This document shows, piece by piece, positions 1 through 46,640 of a stretch of DNA of 64,000 nt; positions within the stretch are counted from its first letter, which is position 1, and each line of letters starts with the position of its first letter. The translations under genes and the position numbers were made by a program. Source of the DNA: Chloroflexota bacterium (GTDB taxonomy: Bacteria > Chloroflexota > Anaerolineae > Anaerolineales > Anaerolineaceae); NCBI GenBank assembly GCA_012517865.1, contig JAAYUC010000040.1, forward strand, positions 1-64,000. The letters are read 5' to 3'. The notes beneath the pieces are model-generated. The model was given only the letters and a program-made list of their open reading frames with translations, was not told the origin of the DNA and searched no databases.

Positions 1-1338
1 GAAATATTGAAGGAGGCATTGTCGGTATCCCCTGTGCCGGCAACTAATGAATAGATGAAGGTATTCCCCGCATCCGGGTCTGTGCTGGAAAGCGTGCCAA
101 CCACGGTATTGGCAGGTTGGTTTTCGGGGATGGTGTTCCCTGAGAGGGTGATATCCGTCGGGGCGTGGTTTTCAACACCGGTGGTGAAGCTCCACGTCTC
201 GCTTTGGGCTGATGAGAGGTACCCATCGGAAGCCACCGCGTACCATTCGTATTCGACGCCAAGGTCAAGGCCGGTCCACTGGACGCTGGCCGTGCCGCCG
301 CTTGCCACACCGTTCGCTGTGCCGATCAGCGTGAAGGGCGCCTCGGCAGTGCCTACCATATCGTAGCTCATGGTGAACTGCTCGTAGTTGCTTTCGCTGG
401 TCAGATATCCGCCGGGAGCCGCCGGAGAGAAGACCTGGGCATAAATTTGGTCAGTCGAAGGCTTAAAGGTCAGCAGGCGGATGTAATCAGGATAACTTCC
501 GCCGATTGTGTCTTGATAATCCGTCAGAAGCACGTGCACAGGATTCATACCTGTTCTGGTTTCCAGTCTGTAAGCCGACCCATCGCTGCTGCTGTGCATA
601 TGCCCACACAGCATCAGGAACAGGTTGGGATTGTCAGAAAGGGCGGTATAGGCAGCCTGATTGTTCCAGGAATTATCCAGGTTCAAAATGTCATGCTGGA
701 CCACAATCCCCCTGCGGCTGCTGTAGGTTTTTAACAAATTGTCCGCCCAATCCAGAGCTCCACTGGTCACCTGATACTGCAGATTGATGACAATAAAGTC
801 CATCCCGCCGGCACTGAAGAAGGAGTAGCTGTTGAAGTTATCCGTGCCGCCAGTGTAATAGCCCTGGTACCAGGATTTCCCGGTGAAACGGCTTGAACCA
901 AAGTATGTGCCGTAAGACCCTCCGGTATCGTGGTTGCCGGGCCCGACGCTGTAGGGAACGCCGACAGCATCTAACTTATCAAATGCCGCGTCGATATTTC
1001 CCCACTGGGTCGCATCGGTCGCAGTATTGACCAAATCACCCACGTGCGTGACAAAAACGAGATCGGGTTCGTCTGAAGATGGGGTAAAGCGGTTTGCAAT
1101 CCAGGTAAACTCAGCTTGCAGCGCGGTGTTATTGTATTGCGATAGGTTCTGGGTATCCGGAACCGTGATGAACAGGAAATCTTCCGCAGGAGCCTGACTG
1201 CTGACCGGCCGGCCGTAGAAAGACACATTCATGGTGTCGCCATCAGGGTCAGAAACGCTGGCCTGAAGCGTGGGAGGAACGCCCACATTGGTGGAACCAT
1301 CAGCGGGCTGCAGCAGCACCGGCGCATCAGGCGCCTGC

Positions 1339-3350
1339 GAGAAATTGGCATAGACAGTTTTGTCCCCGTTCATCACGATGGTATACACGCCGGCGGTATC
1401 GATGATATCGGCCGCGTTTGTTCCGCTCCAGTGCGTGAACTGGTAGCCGGAATTCGGAACAGGGGTGAGCGTGACCACCTGGTTTTCGCTGTAGGTATTG
1501 CCTGAAGGACTCAAATTAACCGTGCCGTGTCCGTCAGTTTCCACCGTAAGCGTGTAGGTAACAACATTCCCAACACAGTAATTTACCAACAGCTTGGGGC
1601 GGTTGGCCGCGGTGGTGGCTTCCGACGAATCAAATTGTACAGCATCAGCGGTGGAGCCGGTAAAGTTCTGCATTGTCAGGCCGTAATTTGGCAGGGATCC
1701 ACTCACCCAGCCCTGGACAACTGCCACGCCAGAACTATTCAGCGGCAGGGTTTTGCTGCCGTTGGATGTGAAACTGGTCGCGTCCGCGCTCCACAGATTG
1801 TCATCGTAGCGGTCCGTTTCCGTGCTGGCTGCTCCGCCAGTACCCCAGCTGTTTACCCCATCATAGGTGTTCCAGTTTGAACTATCGCTCGAATTGGCAC
1901 GGTCGCTGGTGCCTTCCACCCATGCGCGCCGCATATTGTAAAGGTTGAAAACCAGCGAACTGGTTTCTGTAACGTTCAGCTTAAGCGAGGCTGTTTGAAT
2001 TACTGCGGACGAAGGAATGGAGCTGACATCCCACTTGAACAATCCTGTTCGGCGGGATGTTCCGGTGGTATTGTCCACACGCACATTCGTGCTGCCGCCG
2101 TTGTTGTATAGGACGTTGGCAGCGCTCAGATAGTTATCTTCCGTTGCCTCAAGCGAAACGTCATAGCAAATCTGATTACTGACCGTCCCCTCTACCGCCA
2201 CGTTCTTTTGTTCCGCGCCGGCGCTGGTGTGCGTGATGTTCCCGGCGTAAGTACCTGTGTTTGCGCTCAACAAGCGCACGTAGATGGTCGTGGAGGGCAC
2301 GACCCCGTCTGTTGGGGTCAGGCTTAAGGTGGAACTGTACCCGCTGCCGCTTGACAGACTTATCTGGAAGCCGGTCGGCGCGGTAATCACCAGGTCTTCG
2401 GTCAGGTTCAAGCCGGAAACCGTGTACGACTGCGATTCCGAAGCCACATTGGGCAGGGTGGTAAACGGCGCCAGAGTGCCGGAAGTGGAAATGATGGGAT
2501 TTGTGGAAACGCAGTAAGTCACGTTAAGCGTAGGATGCTGATACCCTGAGGTATTTTCCCGCGAAGCAGCAATCCAGCTGCCTGTGCTGGTGCCAGAGTA
2601 ATTCTGGATGGTCAGGCCAAAGTTCGAAGCCGGATTCTCCAGCCAACTCTGGACTACATCAACGCCGGCAGCGTTCAGCGGGAAGGTTTGCAAACCTGTC
2701 CCGGCGAAATCCGAGGCAACCGCGTTCCAAAGGTTGGTATCGTAGCGGTCGCTCGTGGTATTGGCAGCCCCAGCGGTGCCCCAGTTATTCACCCCATCGT
2801 ATTTGTTCCAGGTCGCGCTGTTTGTACTGGATTGGTCATTGGAGGTGCCTTCCACCCAGGCCCGCCTCAATTGGTACAGGCTGTAGGTATACGCGCTCTC
2901 GCCAGTTGTCACATAGAAAGACAGACTCGCGTCAGTCACGGTTGCCTCTGCGGGGATGCCGGAAAGGTCCCACCGCAGCAACGGAGCCCGATACTGATCC
3001 GAGCCCCCGGCTTGATAAAAGGGGTTCAGTTGAACGGTGGGCGCTCCGCCGTAGTTGTAATTACCTTTTGTAGTACCGCTGTTCATGTACGTGTCGGCTG
3101 CCACAGCAAGGCTGGTGGTAACGCAGCTCACGCTCGCGAAATGCGCGGTAACAGATTTAGCCGCGTCCATGGTCAGGGTGGCGGGGTTATCGCTGCCGCT
3201 CAGGTCGCCTGACCAGTGGTCAAAGGCATAACCGGAATTTGGCTCAGCGGTCAGAGTCACCACCGTCCCCGATGGATAACTGCCGCCAGGAGGATTGAGA
3301 CTCACCGAGCCGTGGCCGTCGATACTGGCGCTGAGGGTGTAGTATGCGAC
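1339..3350 (-). repeat. Two copies of an InlB B-repeat-like module (about 72 aa each)
   Basis: Copy 1 is at about 3135-3350 and copy 2 at about 1339-1560. Both read YTL..DGHG.V.L.P.G..Y, then VVTLT..PNSGY.F.HWSG, then a terminal HFA or NFS. This is the bacterial WSG/InlB-type repeat. The order of copies differs: copy 1 precedes a DNRLRE domain and copy 2 follows one. Confidence 0.75.
1573..3130 (-). repeat. Two copies of a DNRLRE-like beta domain (about 200 aa each)
   Basis: Copy 1 is at about 2511-3130 and copy 2 at about 1573-2174. Shared landmarks are L.RAWVEGTS, WN.YDGVN.WGT.GA, DRYD.NLW, and LNVTYC or LVNYC at the end. The pattern fits the DNRLRE family of carbohydrate-enzyme and surface-protein modules, judged by eye. 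Confidence 0.7.
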
Positions 3351-3662
3351 TGCCGCCCCGCTGACGGGCACGTCCTTCTGATCCGCGCCTGTGGATGTGT
3401 GCGTGATATTGCCGGAAAAACTGCCTGCCGCGCCCGTAAGGCGCACCCAGATAGTGGTATCCGTCACGGTTCCGCTGCTTGGGGTCAGGTTTATCGGGGT
3501 GGTAGTAAAACCTGAAGTTTCCATCAGGGAAATCTCAAAGCCGTTTGGAGGGGTAATTACAATCTCGTCTGTAAGGTTGGTTCCAGAAACGGTGTAGCTC
3601 TGTGCCGCGGAAGGCGTGCCGATGGGCGTGAGGAAGCTTGAAAGTGTGGCCACGGTCGTGAT
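2181..3662 (-). repeat. Two copies of an Ig-like surface module (about 100 aa each)
   Basis: Copy 1 is at about 3357-3662 and copy 2 at about 2181-2505. Both contain QSYTVSG-NLT, then I-TPP/APTGFEIS or QIS, then the ending GNITHTS-GA-QK-V-V-G. They are clear divergent duplicates within the surface phosphoesterase. Confidence 0.75.
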
Positions 3663-3776
3663 GGTGGGCGTGCTGGGTGGGATTTCCTCCGCCAGCATGA
3701 AAACCATCTGGCCATAGCCGTTTACTACTGACCCGGCATTGGTAGCCCGAACTTTAAAACTGCCCTCCGCGCTGGG

Positions 3777-4394
3777 CTAGATGCCAGTCCAGCGGGCGAC
3801 ATAGCCGTTTACCGTGTTGTAGCCAGTGCTGAAAGAGACTGATTCGTTGCTGATGACGGTTACTCCCGGCGTGCTGGCGTTCGTGGCAGTCACCATTCCG
3901 GAAATGGTATAGGTGCTTTGGCGGGTACTGTTAGCCGAATCATTCCGGTTGGCAGTGGTGGCAAAGGTATAGGTCTTGTTTGGGTCCAAATTTGTGAAGG
4001 TCAGGTCCGTCCACCAACCCTCACTTGTACCCATAGCTACACCGGCCAGGTTCACCTTGCCGTTGAAGGTCTCATAAGCGTCGGTTCCCGCATTAACATT
4101 ACCGCCGTTAGTGGTTAGTGTGATTGATCCACTGACTGTAAAAGTTGCAGTTACACCTGTATCTGAACCGTCGCTATATTTCTTGAGTGTCCCAGTGGTC
4201 GTCCCTGAAGCAGGAATATTATACGTTGTGATATTCCCGACCGGGTTGGGATAAGGGTCTTTAGAGTCATTGTATGCTACCCAGGCATACTCCGTCTGCG
4301 CCGCGGCCGGCTTGACAGTCGCCAGAAATGTGCCCTGCAGCAGAAGCAGCACGACAAGCACATTGACGATTTTTGACCAACGATTTGTTTTCAT
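3777..4394 (-). CDS. N-terminal fragment (205 aa) of the secreted phosphoesterase, ending at a premature TAG
   Basis: The ATG is preceded by a good CGGAGGAATC ribosome site. The product begins with Lys/Arg residues, a hydrophobic stretch (VLVVLLLLQGTFLATV) and an AAAQ-type signal peptidase I site near residue 32. A Thr/Asn-rich beta domain follows, ending in NGYVARWTGI and then TAG at 3777-3779. The reading frame continues at once as PSAEGSFKVRATNAG, which looks like the second half of the same beta domain. CAG (Gln) to TAG is the simplest single change. As it stands, a 205-residue secreted stub would be made. Confidence is high for the frame and signal peptide, lower for whether the stop is real in the organism. 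Confidence 0.75.
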   Translation of the reverse strand: MKTNRWSKIVNVLVVLLLLQGTFLATVKPAAAQTEYAWVAYNDSKDPYPNPVGNITTYNIPASGTTTGTLKKYSDGSDTGVTATFTVSGSITLTTNGGNVNAGTDAYETFNGKVNLAGVAMGTSEGWWTDLTFTNLDPNKTYTFATTANRNDSANSTRQSTYTISGMVTATNASTPGVTVISNESVSFSTGYNTVNGYVARWTGI

Positions 4395-7926: not shown

Positions 7927-10035
7927 GTGGACCCCATCTTAACCGGACTTCTCAAACCCAGAAGCATCGCCATTATCGGAGCTTCAGCCACTCCAGGCAA
8001 AATTGGCAATACAGTCATCCGCAACCTGATTGAAAGTGAATACAAGGGCGGCGTTTACCCAGTCAACCCCACGGCGGTTGAAATCCTTGGTTTCAAATGT
8101 TACCCGTCTGTCACGGACATCCCCTACGTGGTGGACGCGGCGGTCATTACCGTCCCCGCGAAACTCGTCCTTGAAGCCACCCGACAATGCGGCGAAAAAG
8201 GCGTAAAAGGTCTCATTATCATCACTTCTGGTTTTGCTGAAGTAGGCGATGTCGAACTGGAACATGAAATCGTCCGGGTGGCCAGGTCTTATGGAATGCG
8301 CATTCTCGGTCCCAATATCGTGGGAACGCTTTCCAACAGCGATAAGATGAACGCCTCCTTCGCTCCCTTCCTTCCCTTGCCCGGCAAAGCCTCTCTGGTT
8401 TCCCAAAGCGGCGCCCTGCTCATCGCCATGGACGCGGCTTCTTACACCCGCCGTGTCGGCTTCGACAAAATGGTCTCGATTGGCAACATGGCCGATGTGG
8501 ACTTCGCGGAGCTTATCGCGTATCTGAATGACGACCCGGATACCAACTGTGTCGCGCTGTACGTGGAAGGTTTCCGCGACGGCCGCGCCTTTATCGAAGC
8601 CGCGCGCAACTGCAAAAAACCGATTGTCGTGCTCAAATCCGGTGTTTCCGCCCACGGCGCGGCCGCGGCAGCCTCCCACACCGGCTCGCTAGCTGGCGCC
8701 GCCAAGATTTACAGCACCGCATTCCGCCAGGCCGGCGTCACCCAGGCGACTGACCTGAACGATTTGTTCGACCGTACCCTGGCGCTCTCCCTGCAGCCGC
8801 GCATGAAAGGTGACAACCTGCTCATCCTGACCAACGGCGGCGGCGTGGGCGTGCTCGCCACGGACTCCGCGGAAAAGTACGGTCTACCGCTGCACTTTGC
8901 CCCCGCGGATGTTCAGGAAGAAATGAAAAAGCACATGCCTGATTTCGGCTCCGCCAAGAACCCGGTGGATATGACCGGTATGGCCGGCAACGACTGGTAC
9001 TACGAGACTACCCGCAGCGCATACTCCCATCCCTGGGTGGATGGGCTGGTTGTACTCTATTGCGAAACAGCCATCACCGAACCCGAGCAAATCGCGGACG
9101 CGATTTTACGCGGCTGGCGCGATTCCGGGATTACCGATAAACCACTCACTGTATCCTTTGTCGGCGGCGAAAGAAGCGACAAAGCCATGGCCTGGCTGGT
9201 GGAGCACGGCATTCCCGCCTACAACGCGCCGGACGTGGCGGTCAAAGCCATTGCCACCCTGCGCGATGACCAGCGCATGCAGGAACTAAATCACGACGGC
9301 GGATACAAACCCGGCGAAGTGAATCCTGCCGCTGCCCGCGCAATCATTGCCGGCGCCCGCGAGAAAGGCCGCGATGCCCTGACCGAAATCGAAGCCAAAC
9401 AGGTCTTCAGTTTATACGGCCTGCCCGTCACGGCGACTGACCTTGCAACAACCGAAGAGGAAGCCGTGCGGCTTGCCGAAAAGATTGGCTTCCCAGTGGT
9501 CATGAAAATCGTTTCACCCGACATTTTGCACAAATCAGACGCGGGTGGCGTGAAAGTCAACATCAAGAGCGCTGAACAGGCAAGAGAAGCCTACCGGACC
9601 ATTCTTGACAACGCGCACAACTACAAAGCCGATGCCTTCATCGAAGGTGTTGCGGTGCAGGAAATGGCTCCCTGGGCTACTGAGGTCATTATCGGCTCAG
9701 TCAACGACGGCACCTTCGGTCCGACCGTCATGTTCGGCCTGGGCGGCATCTTTGTCGAGGTCCTGAAGGACGTCACCTTCCGCGTCGCACCGATTTCTGA
9801 AAGTGAAGCCCTCGGTATGGAAGATGAAATCCGCAGCGCCGCGATTTTGAACGGAACCCGCGGTGAAAGCCCCCGGGACAAAGAAGCTCTGGCAAAAGTA
9901 CTCGCGGCTTACGCCTATATGGTGCACGACCTGCAAGATGAAATCGCGGAATCAGACGCCAACCCGGTCATCGTTTACGAAAGGGGACAGGGCGTCAAAG
10001 TTGTGGATGCCCGCATCATCCTCAAGAAAAAGTAA
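7927..10035 (+). CDS. acd: ADP-forming acetate/acyl-CoA synthetase, fused alpha-beta subunits
   Basis: Converts acyl-CoA, ADP and phosphate to the acid, CoA and ATP, giving one ATP by substrate-level phosphorylation. The N-terminal half holds a CoA-binding domain (IAIIGASATPGKIGN near residues 15-30) and two succinyl-CoA-ligase-like domains. The phosphorylatable His lies in SHTGSLAG near residue 253. The C-terminal part is an ATP-grasp domain (KQVFSLYGLP..., then VMKIVSPDILHKSDAGGVKVN). The length of 702 residues matches the fused form. I took GTG at 7927, 5 bases after GGAGG; the TTG at 7915 lies within the ribosome site and is unlikely. It probably pairs with 2-oxoacid:ferredoxin oxidoreductase. 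Confidence 0.92.
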   Translation: MDPILTGLLKPRSIAIIGASATPGKIGNTVIRNLIESEYKGGVYPVNPTAVEILGFKCYPSVTDIPYVVDAAVITVPAKLVLEATRQCGEKGVKGLIIITSGFAEVGDVELEHEIVRVARSYGMRILGPNIVGTLSNSDKMNASFAPFLPLPGKASLVSQSGALLIAMDAASYTRRVGFDKMVSIGNMADVDFAELIAYLNDDPDTNCVALYVEGFRDGRAFIEAARNCKKPIVVLKSGVSAHGAAAAASHTGSLAGAAKIYSTAFRQAGVTQATDLNDLFDRTLALSLQPRMKGDNLLILTNGGGVGVLATDSAEKYGLPLHFAPADVQEEMKKHMPDFGSAKNPVDMTGMAGNDWYYETTRSAYSHPWVDGLVVLYCETAITEPEQIADAILRGWRDSGITDKPLTVSFVGGERSDKAMAWLVEHGIPAYNAPDVAVKAIATLRDDQRMQELNHDGGYKPGEVNPAAARAIIAGAREKGRDALTEIEAKQVFSLYGLPVTATDLATTEEEAVRLAEKIGFPVVMKIVSPDILHKSDAGGVKVNIKSAEQAREAYRTILDNAHNYKADAFIEGVAVQEMAPWATEVIIGSVNDGTFGPTVMFGLGGIFVEVLKDVTFRVAPISESEALGMEDEIRSAAILNGTRGESPRDKEALAKVLAAYAYMVHDLQDEIAESDANPVIVYERGQGVKVVDARIILKKK

Positions 10036-20139: not shown

Positions 20140-22260
20140 ATGGCAAATAAGCAGGAAAATAAAAGCAAACCGGCTGGCTTTACGCAAGGCGCCTTGCGCC
20201 TGTTCATTCTGCTTGCCGCGAGTTTATTAGTTTTTGGCTCTCTGGTGCTGCCGGGGCTTATCAGTCAATCCAATGTTCCTGCCGGCGTGGGCGAGGTAGC
20301 CACCCAGGAAATCCTCGCGCCGTATTCCATCACCTATGAAAGCAAAGTCCTCACCGAGCGCGCCCGCACCCAGGCTGCCGCCGCGGTTTCTCCTGTTTTT
20401 TTACCCGCGGACCCCAGTATTTCAAGGCATCAATACGAAACCCTAAACAGCATTCTGTATTACATTTCCGCGGTCCGCAACGACAGCTTTTCCACCCGGG
20501 AACAAAAACTGATGGACCTCGCTGCCATCAGTTCCATCAAGCTGAACAGCACCACAGCCGAGCAGATACTTGATTACAGCGAACAAAACTGGCAGGCAAT
20601 TGAAGCTGAAGCCCGCCGCGTTCTGGAACAGGTCATGCGGGATACTATCCGCAACGACAATGTGTCGCAAATCCGCAGCAACTTGCCGGCTGTGATTGAT
20701 TTTTCTTTCCAGCAGGACGAAGCGCAGGTAGTCATTGCCCTGGTTTCGCCGCTGATTACGCCAACCAGCCTGTTTAGCGAAGAAGAAACCAACGAAGCGC
20801 GGGAGCAGGCGCGCGCGGAAATTGAACCGATTTCCCGCCGCATCATCGCCGGCGAAGTCCTGGTTCGGCGGGGTCAAATCATTCGCGAAGAAGATTATGA
20901 AGCTCTCAATGTTTTCGGCCTTGCCAAACCTGTCAATCAAACAGACCGAATTATCACCAGCGGCGTAATAACAGGAACAATTGCCGTGCTGGCAGCTCTT
21001 TATTTTCTCCGCAGACAGGAACAGCCTTTCTTTTCGGTTAAAGCGCTGTTGGTCATCGCGAGCATGTTCATCATCTTCCTCGCGTTGGGTCGCTTTATGG
21101 TGATGGGCCGTACCATTGTCCCTTATCTCTACCCGGTCGCCGCCTTTGGTTTGACTCTGTCAATCATTTTCAACCTGGAAGTAGGCGTCGTGATGAGCCT
21201 TTTCCTGAGTGTTTTGATGGTCTTCGATAATGCTCGCGAAGCTGAGCTGGGCGTCTTCTATATCCTTCCAGCCATTGTGGGCATGCTCACCATCGGCCGC
21301 GCACGGCGCATCAGCGCTTTTCTCGCGGCAGGCCTCCTCACCGGCCTCTCCGCGCTGGCAGTGGTAGTGGCATTCCGCTTGGGTGATACTTATACTGACC
21401 TGATTGGTCTGACATCCCTGTCTGCCTCGGCGCTCATCAACGGGCTGGCTTCGGGCAGCCTGGCTCTCCTTTTGCAATACATCGTTTCTCAGGTGCTGGA
21501 CATCCCCACCGCGCTGCAGCTTCTGGATGTCTCCCGTCCGGACCATCCTTTATTGCAGTACATTCTTCGCAACGCTCCCGGGTCCTATCAGCACAGCCTG
21601 CTGGTATCCAACCTGGCAGAGCAAGCCGCGGAAGCGATTGGCGCTGACCGCATGTTGGTGCGCGTTGGCGCCCTGTTTCATGATGCCGGCAAAGCCAATA
21701 ACCCGCAGTTTTTCATTGAGAATCAAGTCAAGGATAAGCTGGATTCCCACGACAACCTGGACCCGGTCACTGCCGCTGCCACCATCATCCAACACGTCCA
21801 CGACGGCGTCGCCCTGGCGAAGAAGTACCGCCTGCCTTCGCGGGTGATTGATTTCATCCGCGAGCACCACGGAACAATGCTTACGCTCTACCAGTATTCC
21901 CAGGCCGCGGCCGGAGCCGACGACCCGGAGAGCATAAACAAAGCTCTTTTTACCTATCCCGGCCCCAAACCGCAGTCCAAAGAAACCGCGATTTTAATGC
22001 TTTCAGATGGTACGGAAGCCCGTTCACGCTCGGAAACGCCGCGCACCGACGAGGAAATCCGCGCGCTCATCCGAAAAACGATTGACATGTACAAAAACGA
22101 GGGTCAGCTTGATGCGACCGACCTGACATTGAAAGACCTGAGCACCATTGAGGAATCCTTCTTCAAAACCCTGCAGCGGTCTTATCATCCCCGCATCCAG
22201 TACCCAAACCTGAAACTCAACGGAAACTCCGCGGTAAAAGGCAGCAATTCCGCGGATTAG
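20140..22260 (+). CDS. pgpH: PgpH/YqfF-type 7TM HD hydrolase, likely cyclic-di-AMP phosphodiesterase
   Basis: A 706-residue membrane enzyme. The N-terminal helix (about 18-40) is followed by an extracytoplasmic 7TMR-HDED domain (about 50-265), then six or seven helices (about 270-455). A cytoplasmic HD domain covers about 475-680. The HD motifs are SYQHSLLVSNL, ALFHDAGK and FIREHHG. PgpH in Listeria hydrolyses c-di-AMP to pApA, controlling turgor and wall stress. It starts 2 bases after yqeY and is followed by ybeY, as in the classical phoH-pgpH-ybeY order, but phoH is absent. Confidence 0.9.
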   Translation: MANKQENKSKPAGFTQGALRLFILLAASLLVFGSLVLPGLISQSNVPAGVGEVATQEILAPYSITYESKVLTERARTQAAAAVSPVFLPADPSISRHQYETLNSILYYISAVRNDSFSTREQKLMDLAAISSIKLNSTTAEQILDYSEQNWQAIEAEARRVLEQVMRDTIRNDNVSQIRSNLPAVIDFSFQQDEAQVVIALVSPLITPTSLFSEEETNEAREQARAEIEPISRRIIAGEVLVRRGQIIREEDYEALNVFGLAKPVNQTDRIITSGVITGTIAVLAALYFLRRQEQPFFSVKALLVIASMFIIFLALGRFMVMGRTIVPYLYPVAAFGLTLSIIFNLEVGVVMSLFLSVLMVFDNAREAELGVFYILPAIVGMLTIGRARRISAFLAAGLLTGLSALAVVVAFRLGDTYTDLIGLTSLSASALINGLASGSLALLLQYIVSQVLDIPTALQLLDVSRPDHPLLQYILRNAPGSYQHSLLVSNLAEQAAEAIGADRMLVRVGALFHDAGKANNPQFFIENQVKDKLDSHDNLDPVTAAATIIQHVHDGVALAKKYRLPSRVIDFIREHHGTMLTLYQYSQAAAGADDPESINKALFTYPGPKPQSKETAILMLSDGTEARSRSETPRTDEEIRALIRKTIDMYKNEGQLDATDLTLKDLSTIEESFFKTLQRSYHPRIQYPNLKLNGNSAVKGSNSAD

Positions 22261-46161: not shown

Positions 46162-46640
46162 ACCAAAGAAACGCTCCGGAGGCTGTGCGCTTTGGGAAAT
46201 TTCTGCTGGTGGGCGCGCTCAACACTCTAATTGACTTCGGTTTAATGAATTTCTTTTCCGGGCTGCTGCATTTGCCGCTGGTCCTTTCCCAGGCGCTTTC
46301 GTTTATTCTCGCGGTGCTCAACAGCTATATCCTCAACCGCCTCTGGATTTATCCAGAAACCCGCGCGAATTCTCTCGCCGGGCAGTTCTCCAAATTCGCG
46401 ATTATCAACGCTGCCGGTCTCGCGCTGCGCACGGTTTCCATTCCTCCTGTCGACGGCTGGTTCAGACAATTCGTCATTTCAAACCAAGTAAATTTTTTGG
46501 GCTTCTCCCCTCAAACACTCAGCCGAAATCTGGCGCTCGGGGTGGTTCTTCCCATCACGCTGGTACTCAACTACGTCGCGAATCGTTTCTGGACCTTCGG
46601 AGATGTCGCGAGAAGTCGAACTTTGGTCAGGAAGGTGTAG
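46158..46640 (+). CDS. GtrA-family membrane protein
   Basis: A 160-residue protein with four membrane helices (about 12-32, 38-58, 75-95, 125-147). [20 protein letters not shown] and [17 protein letters not shown] are family hallmarks. GtrA proteins are thought to move lipid-linked sugars across the membrane. Coupling with the UXS-like epimerase supports a role in surface glycan building. Confidence 0.88.

Follow-up and report, generated by a model that had tools for sequence, protein, structure and literature searches.

A giant secreted phosphoesterase gene at the start of the window (the whole stretch of 64,000 nucleotides that was analysed) is interrupted by a single in-frame amber codon, which is probably a recent nonsense mutation inactivating an accessory gene. 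The window belongs to a 51-contig draft genome of 1.92 Mb with an estimated completeness of 99.8%. The interruption had been claimed in a sequence-only reading that left the strand unstated; it is confirmed here and lies on the minus strand, where the plus-strand CTA at 3777-3779 reads as TAG. The parts of the interrupted frame are:

3777..3779, minus strand: in-frame amber codon TAG, codon 206 of the frame, seen in the sequence; relatives carry CAG, CAA or another sense codon
3777..4394, minus strand: upstream open reading frame of 205 aa, with a signal peptide and most of the N-terminal beta domain and the TAG at its end; homologous to the N-termini of L067, L068 and L102
4398..4403, minus strand: ribosome-binding site GGAGGA, intact, just 5' of the ATG, read from the sequence
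3..3776, minus strand: the same frame beyond the TAG in the sequence, 1258 codons with no stop, running off the contig end

The upstream open reading frame starts with an ATG at 4394, has a model-predicted signal-peptide helix at residues 5-23 and ends in ...VARWTGI before the stop. Beyond the TAG the frame resumes as PSAEGSFKVRATNAG... and stays open to base 3, with no second stop or frameshift across the 1258 downstream codons, in agreement with the roughly 3.7 kb of open frame to the window edge described previously. Contig C8 and the window share their first base, so this open end is the end of the contig as well as the edge of the window. The contig end thus truncates the gene, and C8 lacks its last part, which in Levilinea amounts to about 700 codons. 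The window start (positions 1-3) falls within a cadherin-like repeat at the C8 end, and the assembly probably broke there at a repeated domain. The rest of the C-terminus was sought on the other contigs of the genome and not found, the matches being to other giant proteins.

Taken as a whole, the gene encodes a secreted multidomain metallophosphoesterase of at least 1464 codons, in which the following domains were located:

3687..4289, minus strand: N-terminal beta domain interrupted by the TAG (residues 36-236), from a 15-sequence alignment and a model with mean pLDDT 83
3129..3341, minus strand: InlB B-repeat-like domain (residues 352-422; Pfam PF18998, E = 8.5e-28 for the whole protein), with a second copy further downstream
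1584..2141, minus strand: DNRLRE domain (residues 752-937; NCBIfam NF033679, E = 5.4e-26, two stretches), with a second, earlier copy also matched
591..1076, minus strand: calcineurin-like metallophosphoesterase domain (residues 1107-1268) with intact active-site motifs, from Pfam PF00149 and a motif alignment
3..185, minus strand: start of a cadherin-like repeat (residues 1404-1464), cut by the contig end, matching the C-terminal repeats of L067/L068

The PF00149 (Metallophos) match has an E value of 1.3e-6 and scores 29.5 bits against a cut-off of 21.5. The metal-binding motifs had been described as intact, and GD, GNHD, H and GHMH (general pattern GD, GNHD, H, GHxH) are indeed all present, and all are kept in eight aligned homologous domains of relatives. 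A sequence search of the PDB with the phosphoesterase domain found nothing. The N-terminal domain gave no match at E < 0.001 in a PDB fold search, and the weak matches, a lead at most, include CBM6/CBM35-like beta sandwiches. The name cadherin-like was read from the sequence with no profile match behind it; the same repeat start also matches giant proteins in G028 and G005. Large secreted repeat proteins occur elsewhere in the genome, namely L113 (C51), L114 (C27) and L115 (C40), of 664, 1203 and 1103 codons. Their C-termini have a common short tail, for example LFLPILVK, ITFLPLLIK and IYLPIAFK, with similar tails in relatives (FIFLPLIIR, YRIMLPVIIR and YFIPLLYR), which is possibly a sorting or anchoring signal.

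L067 and L068, from two Levilinea genomes of the same family, are uninterrupted open reading frames, one of 2223 and one of 2270 codons; identity to the window protein is 57% across the first 236 residues and 55-57% across residues 639-1406. A further relative in that family, G064, encodes a co-linear single open reading frame with 49% identity over residues 2-1418. Since this identity of 49-57% in full-length relatives spans the stop, the two halves represent one gene rather than a chance pairing of two open frames. At the column of the TAG, the 18 rows from relatives represent 16 distinct homologous domains, since the pairs L068/L109 and L111/L112 each cover one stretch twice and count once. 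Glutamine occupies this position in eight of the 16 (four CAG, four CAA), in the remaining eight it is Ser (2), Arg (2), Asn, Thr, Lys or Ala, and a stop occurs in none. The codon is CAG in L067 and L068, the nearest relatives, and CAA in the co-linear G064. CAG is one transition from TAG, so the single CAG-to-TAG change proposed earlier is borne out at exactly that codon, and the comparison, with a sense codon in every distinct domain, supports a recent pseudogene.

The intact downstream frame also bears on the age of the change. About 3% of random substitutions in this frame would create a stop; given that no other stop or frameshift is found in the 1258 codons, neutral drift since the mutation has a 95% upper limit of about 100 substitutions (2.7%), which ignores indels and is therefore generous. 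Changes unique to the window lineage were also counted against those unique to G064, with Levilinea as the outgroup. The two lineages are near equal before the stop (32 vs 33), over residues 207-346 (17 vs 19) and over residues 641-1406 (112 vs 111). The phosphoesterase domain (window 375-1217) is faster on the window lineage, with 53 vs 28 unique changes and 50 vs 22 on another alignment. Altered or relaxed constraint on this domain is possible, and no tie to the stop is drawn.

The 205-residue product might be a complete short secreted protein with the TAG as its natural end, given the start codon, ribosome-binding site and signal peptide of its open reading frame. The relatives argue against this, as their beta domain extends beyond the site by about 30 residues, among which G211, F213, Y227, F232, M233 and L234 are conserved columns of the 15-sequence alignment. 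In the AlphaFold model of the N-terminal domain, built with the TAG read as Gln (mean pLDDT 83), the stop lies at the end of the strand formed by residues 200-207, and strands 213-219 and 231-235 are still to come. The frames before and after the TAG therefore form one continuous beta domain, as had been proposed. Orthologues ending naturally at the TAG had been named as the observation that would overturn the split, and no relative ends at this column; with the relatives continuing past the site, a natural C-terminus has next to no likelihood and is ruled out. Equally remote is a genome-wide decoding of TAG as a sense codon, through an amber suppressor, pyrrolysine or a change of code, for which one in-frame TAG is the evidence in favour. 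Both release factors are encoded, with a TIGR00019 match above cut-off on C15 (RF1) and a second match on C24, called RF2-like by its lower score only. No CUA anticodon was found in the 44 tRNA matches of the genome assembly, where two matches not called by ARAGORN (C41:61661 and C33:88448) were read by eye as UAA (Leu) and GUA (Tyr-like), and a search of the genome for PylS found none. TAG ends 12 of the 56 open reading frames in the window that were selected mechanically as non-overlapping and of at least 100 codons. It also parts unrelated genes in the same frame, marking the boundary between a 7TM-HD protein and YbeY at 22258 and that between a GtrA-family protein and an RsmD-type methyltransferase (PF03602) at 46638, and the window's other pairs joined by a same-frame TAG either mark a clean boundary between genes or have a longer open reading frame opposite them. 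The other giant secreted proteins (C51, C27 and C40) are single open frames with no in-frame TAG. TAG is an ordinary stop in this organism, and the suppressor tRNA and further in-frame TAG codons suggested as signs of recoding did not appear; within the limits of the assembly, both an amber suppressor and a change of code are excluded.

An assembly or consensus error in an intact gene ranks second after the nonsense mutation and is unlikely. A one-base change in an otherwise undamaged frame of a 51-contig draft looks like such an error, and the TAG creates CTAG, a word avoided in the window (nine occurrences, vs 34 expected from trinucleotide counts and 110 in dinucleotide shuffles). However, a rare CTAG is just as compatible with a young mutation, the site lies 3.7 kb inside the contig and away from any homopolymer or tandem tract, and substitution errors are in general rare in consensus sequences; the base is probably real. 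The palindrome GATC is likewise scarce (62 vs 275 expected), both words being depleted about four-fold in the window, and other contigs of the genome are short of CTAG too (7 vs 28). Of the nine CTAGs in the window, one is created by the amber codon and five lie before base 8700. Vsr repair was considered as a cause of the CTAG avoidance and set aside, as no Vsr match was found. Readthrough at a useful level by near-cognate decoding, yielding some full-length protein, has been proposed generally for lone in-frame stops in bacteria and is improbable here. In its favour, the downstream frame is intact and overall evolving no faster than the intact orthologue, and many in-frame stops have a downstream dN/dS below 1 (Belinky et al. 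2021, PMC7918605). That study regards lone in-frame stops without other decay as often tolerated and as poor pseudogene markers in bacteria, which counts against the nonsense mutation, as does the faster phosphoesterase domain, unexplained by the equal counts elsewhere. The argument for selected readthrough rests on a stop conserved between orthologues (PMC7918605), and is inapplicable here because the stop is conserved in no relative examined, including all 16 distinct homologous domains. The 57 nt after the TAG fold into no unusual RNA structure (z = 0.78, with 153 of 200 shuffles folding at least as well). With RF1 present and no suppressor tRNA found, the readthrough put forward in the sequence-only reading is disfavoured. 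It is very improbable that low-level UAG readthrough supplies a trace of full-length phosphoesterase, the stop then damping the expression of a costly surface protein instead of abolishing its function. Phase-variable loss, another earlier suggestion, is contradicted by the sequence at the site, which has no homopolymer or repeat tract, and a point substitution is no phase switch. Nothing suggests a new genetic code or programmed readthrough.

Under the favoured nonsense mutation, a single-base substitution of CAG (Gln) to TAG would have placed a premature stop at codon 206, where RF1 would terminate translation. The predicted product is an exported fragment of 205 residues, without the last two strands of its first domain and without any catalytic or repeat domain. 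Since the downstream open reading frame lacks a signal peptide, and a ribosome-binding site is not evident, it should be neither made nor exported. Together, the predicted truncation and the expected lack of a downstream product would make this gene a newly formed pseudogene or, in this strain, a loss-of-function allele.

The distribution of the family marks the secreted phosphoesterase gene as accessory. Searches of 28 other genomes of the same genus found no orthologue, with matches to the repeat domains only, and matches to the N-terminal domain occur in eight of 146 other family genomes searched and in one further genome of a class-wide sample. No homologue was found in phages, plasmids or IMG/VR. 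In another genus, the homologous locus L108 of G051 (G051:C49:73000-78668) carries a frameshift near 3860-3970, which may be an assembly fault. A TAG is also present at this locus (L079/L108), just before the first domain copy in the signal-peptide zone; G051 (L079) was rejected as a second TAG-interrupted homologue since its TAG precedes the domain and is a different codon. The frameshifted locus is apparently an independent decay and suggests that the family has been lost repeatedly.

If the base is real, the gene captures the loss of an accessory enzyme, at the surface or secreted, in a small-genome bacterium of the Anaerolineaceae type. The observation would gain greater weight only if full-length protein were made despite the stop. 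It also advises caution, as a lone in-frame TAG, in a frame with no other damage, is by itself no pointer to recoding; this amber-split gene is ordinary biology.

Among known systems, genes recoded with pyrrolysine or at amber codons resemble the present case in their in-frame TAG only; here there is no PylS and no CUA tRNA, RF1 is present and TAG is an ordinary stop. The resemblance is closer to nonsense-mutation pseudogenes and the lone in-frame stops of PMC7918605, which likewise combine one substitution with an otherwise intact gene, intact relatives and no other lesion; those stops differ from the present one, which is conserved in no relative examined. The genes of Levilinea saccharolytica KIBI-1 (L068) and of a Levilinea MAG (L067) share with the window gene the signal peptide, the N-terminal beta domain, the DNRLRE domain, the InlB-type repeat and the calcineurin-like phosphoesterase, at 55-57% identity in matched blocks. 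They differ in being uninterrupted over about 2,220-2,270 codons with Gln (CAG) at the site, and in a repeat region that is partly of another order and number.
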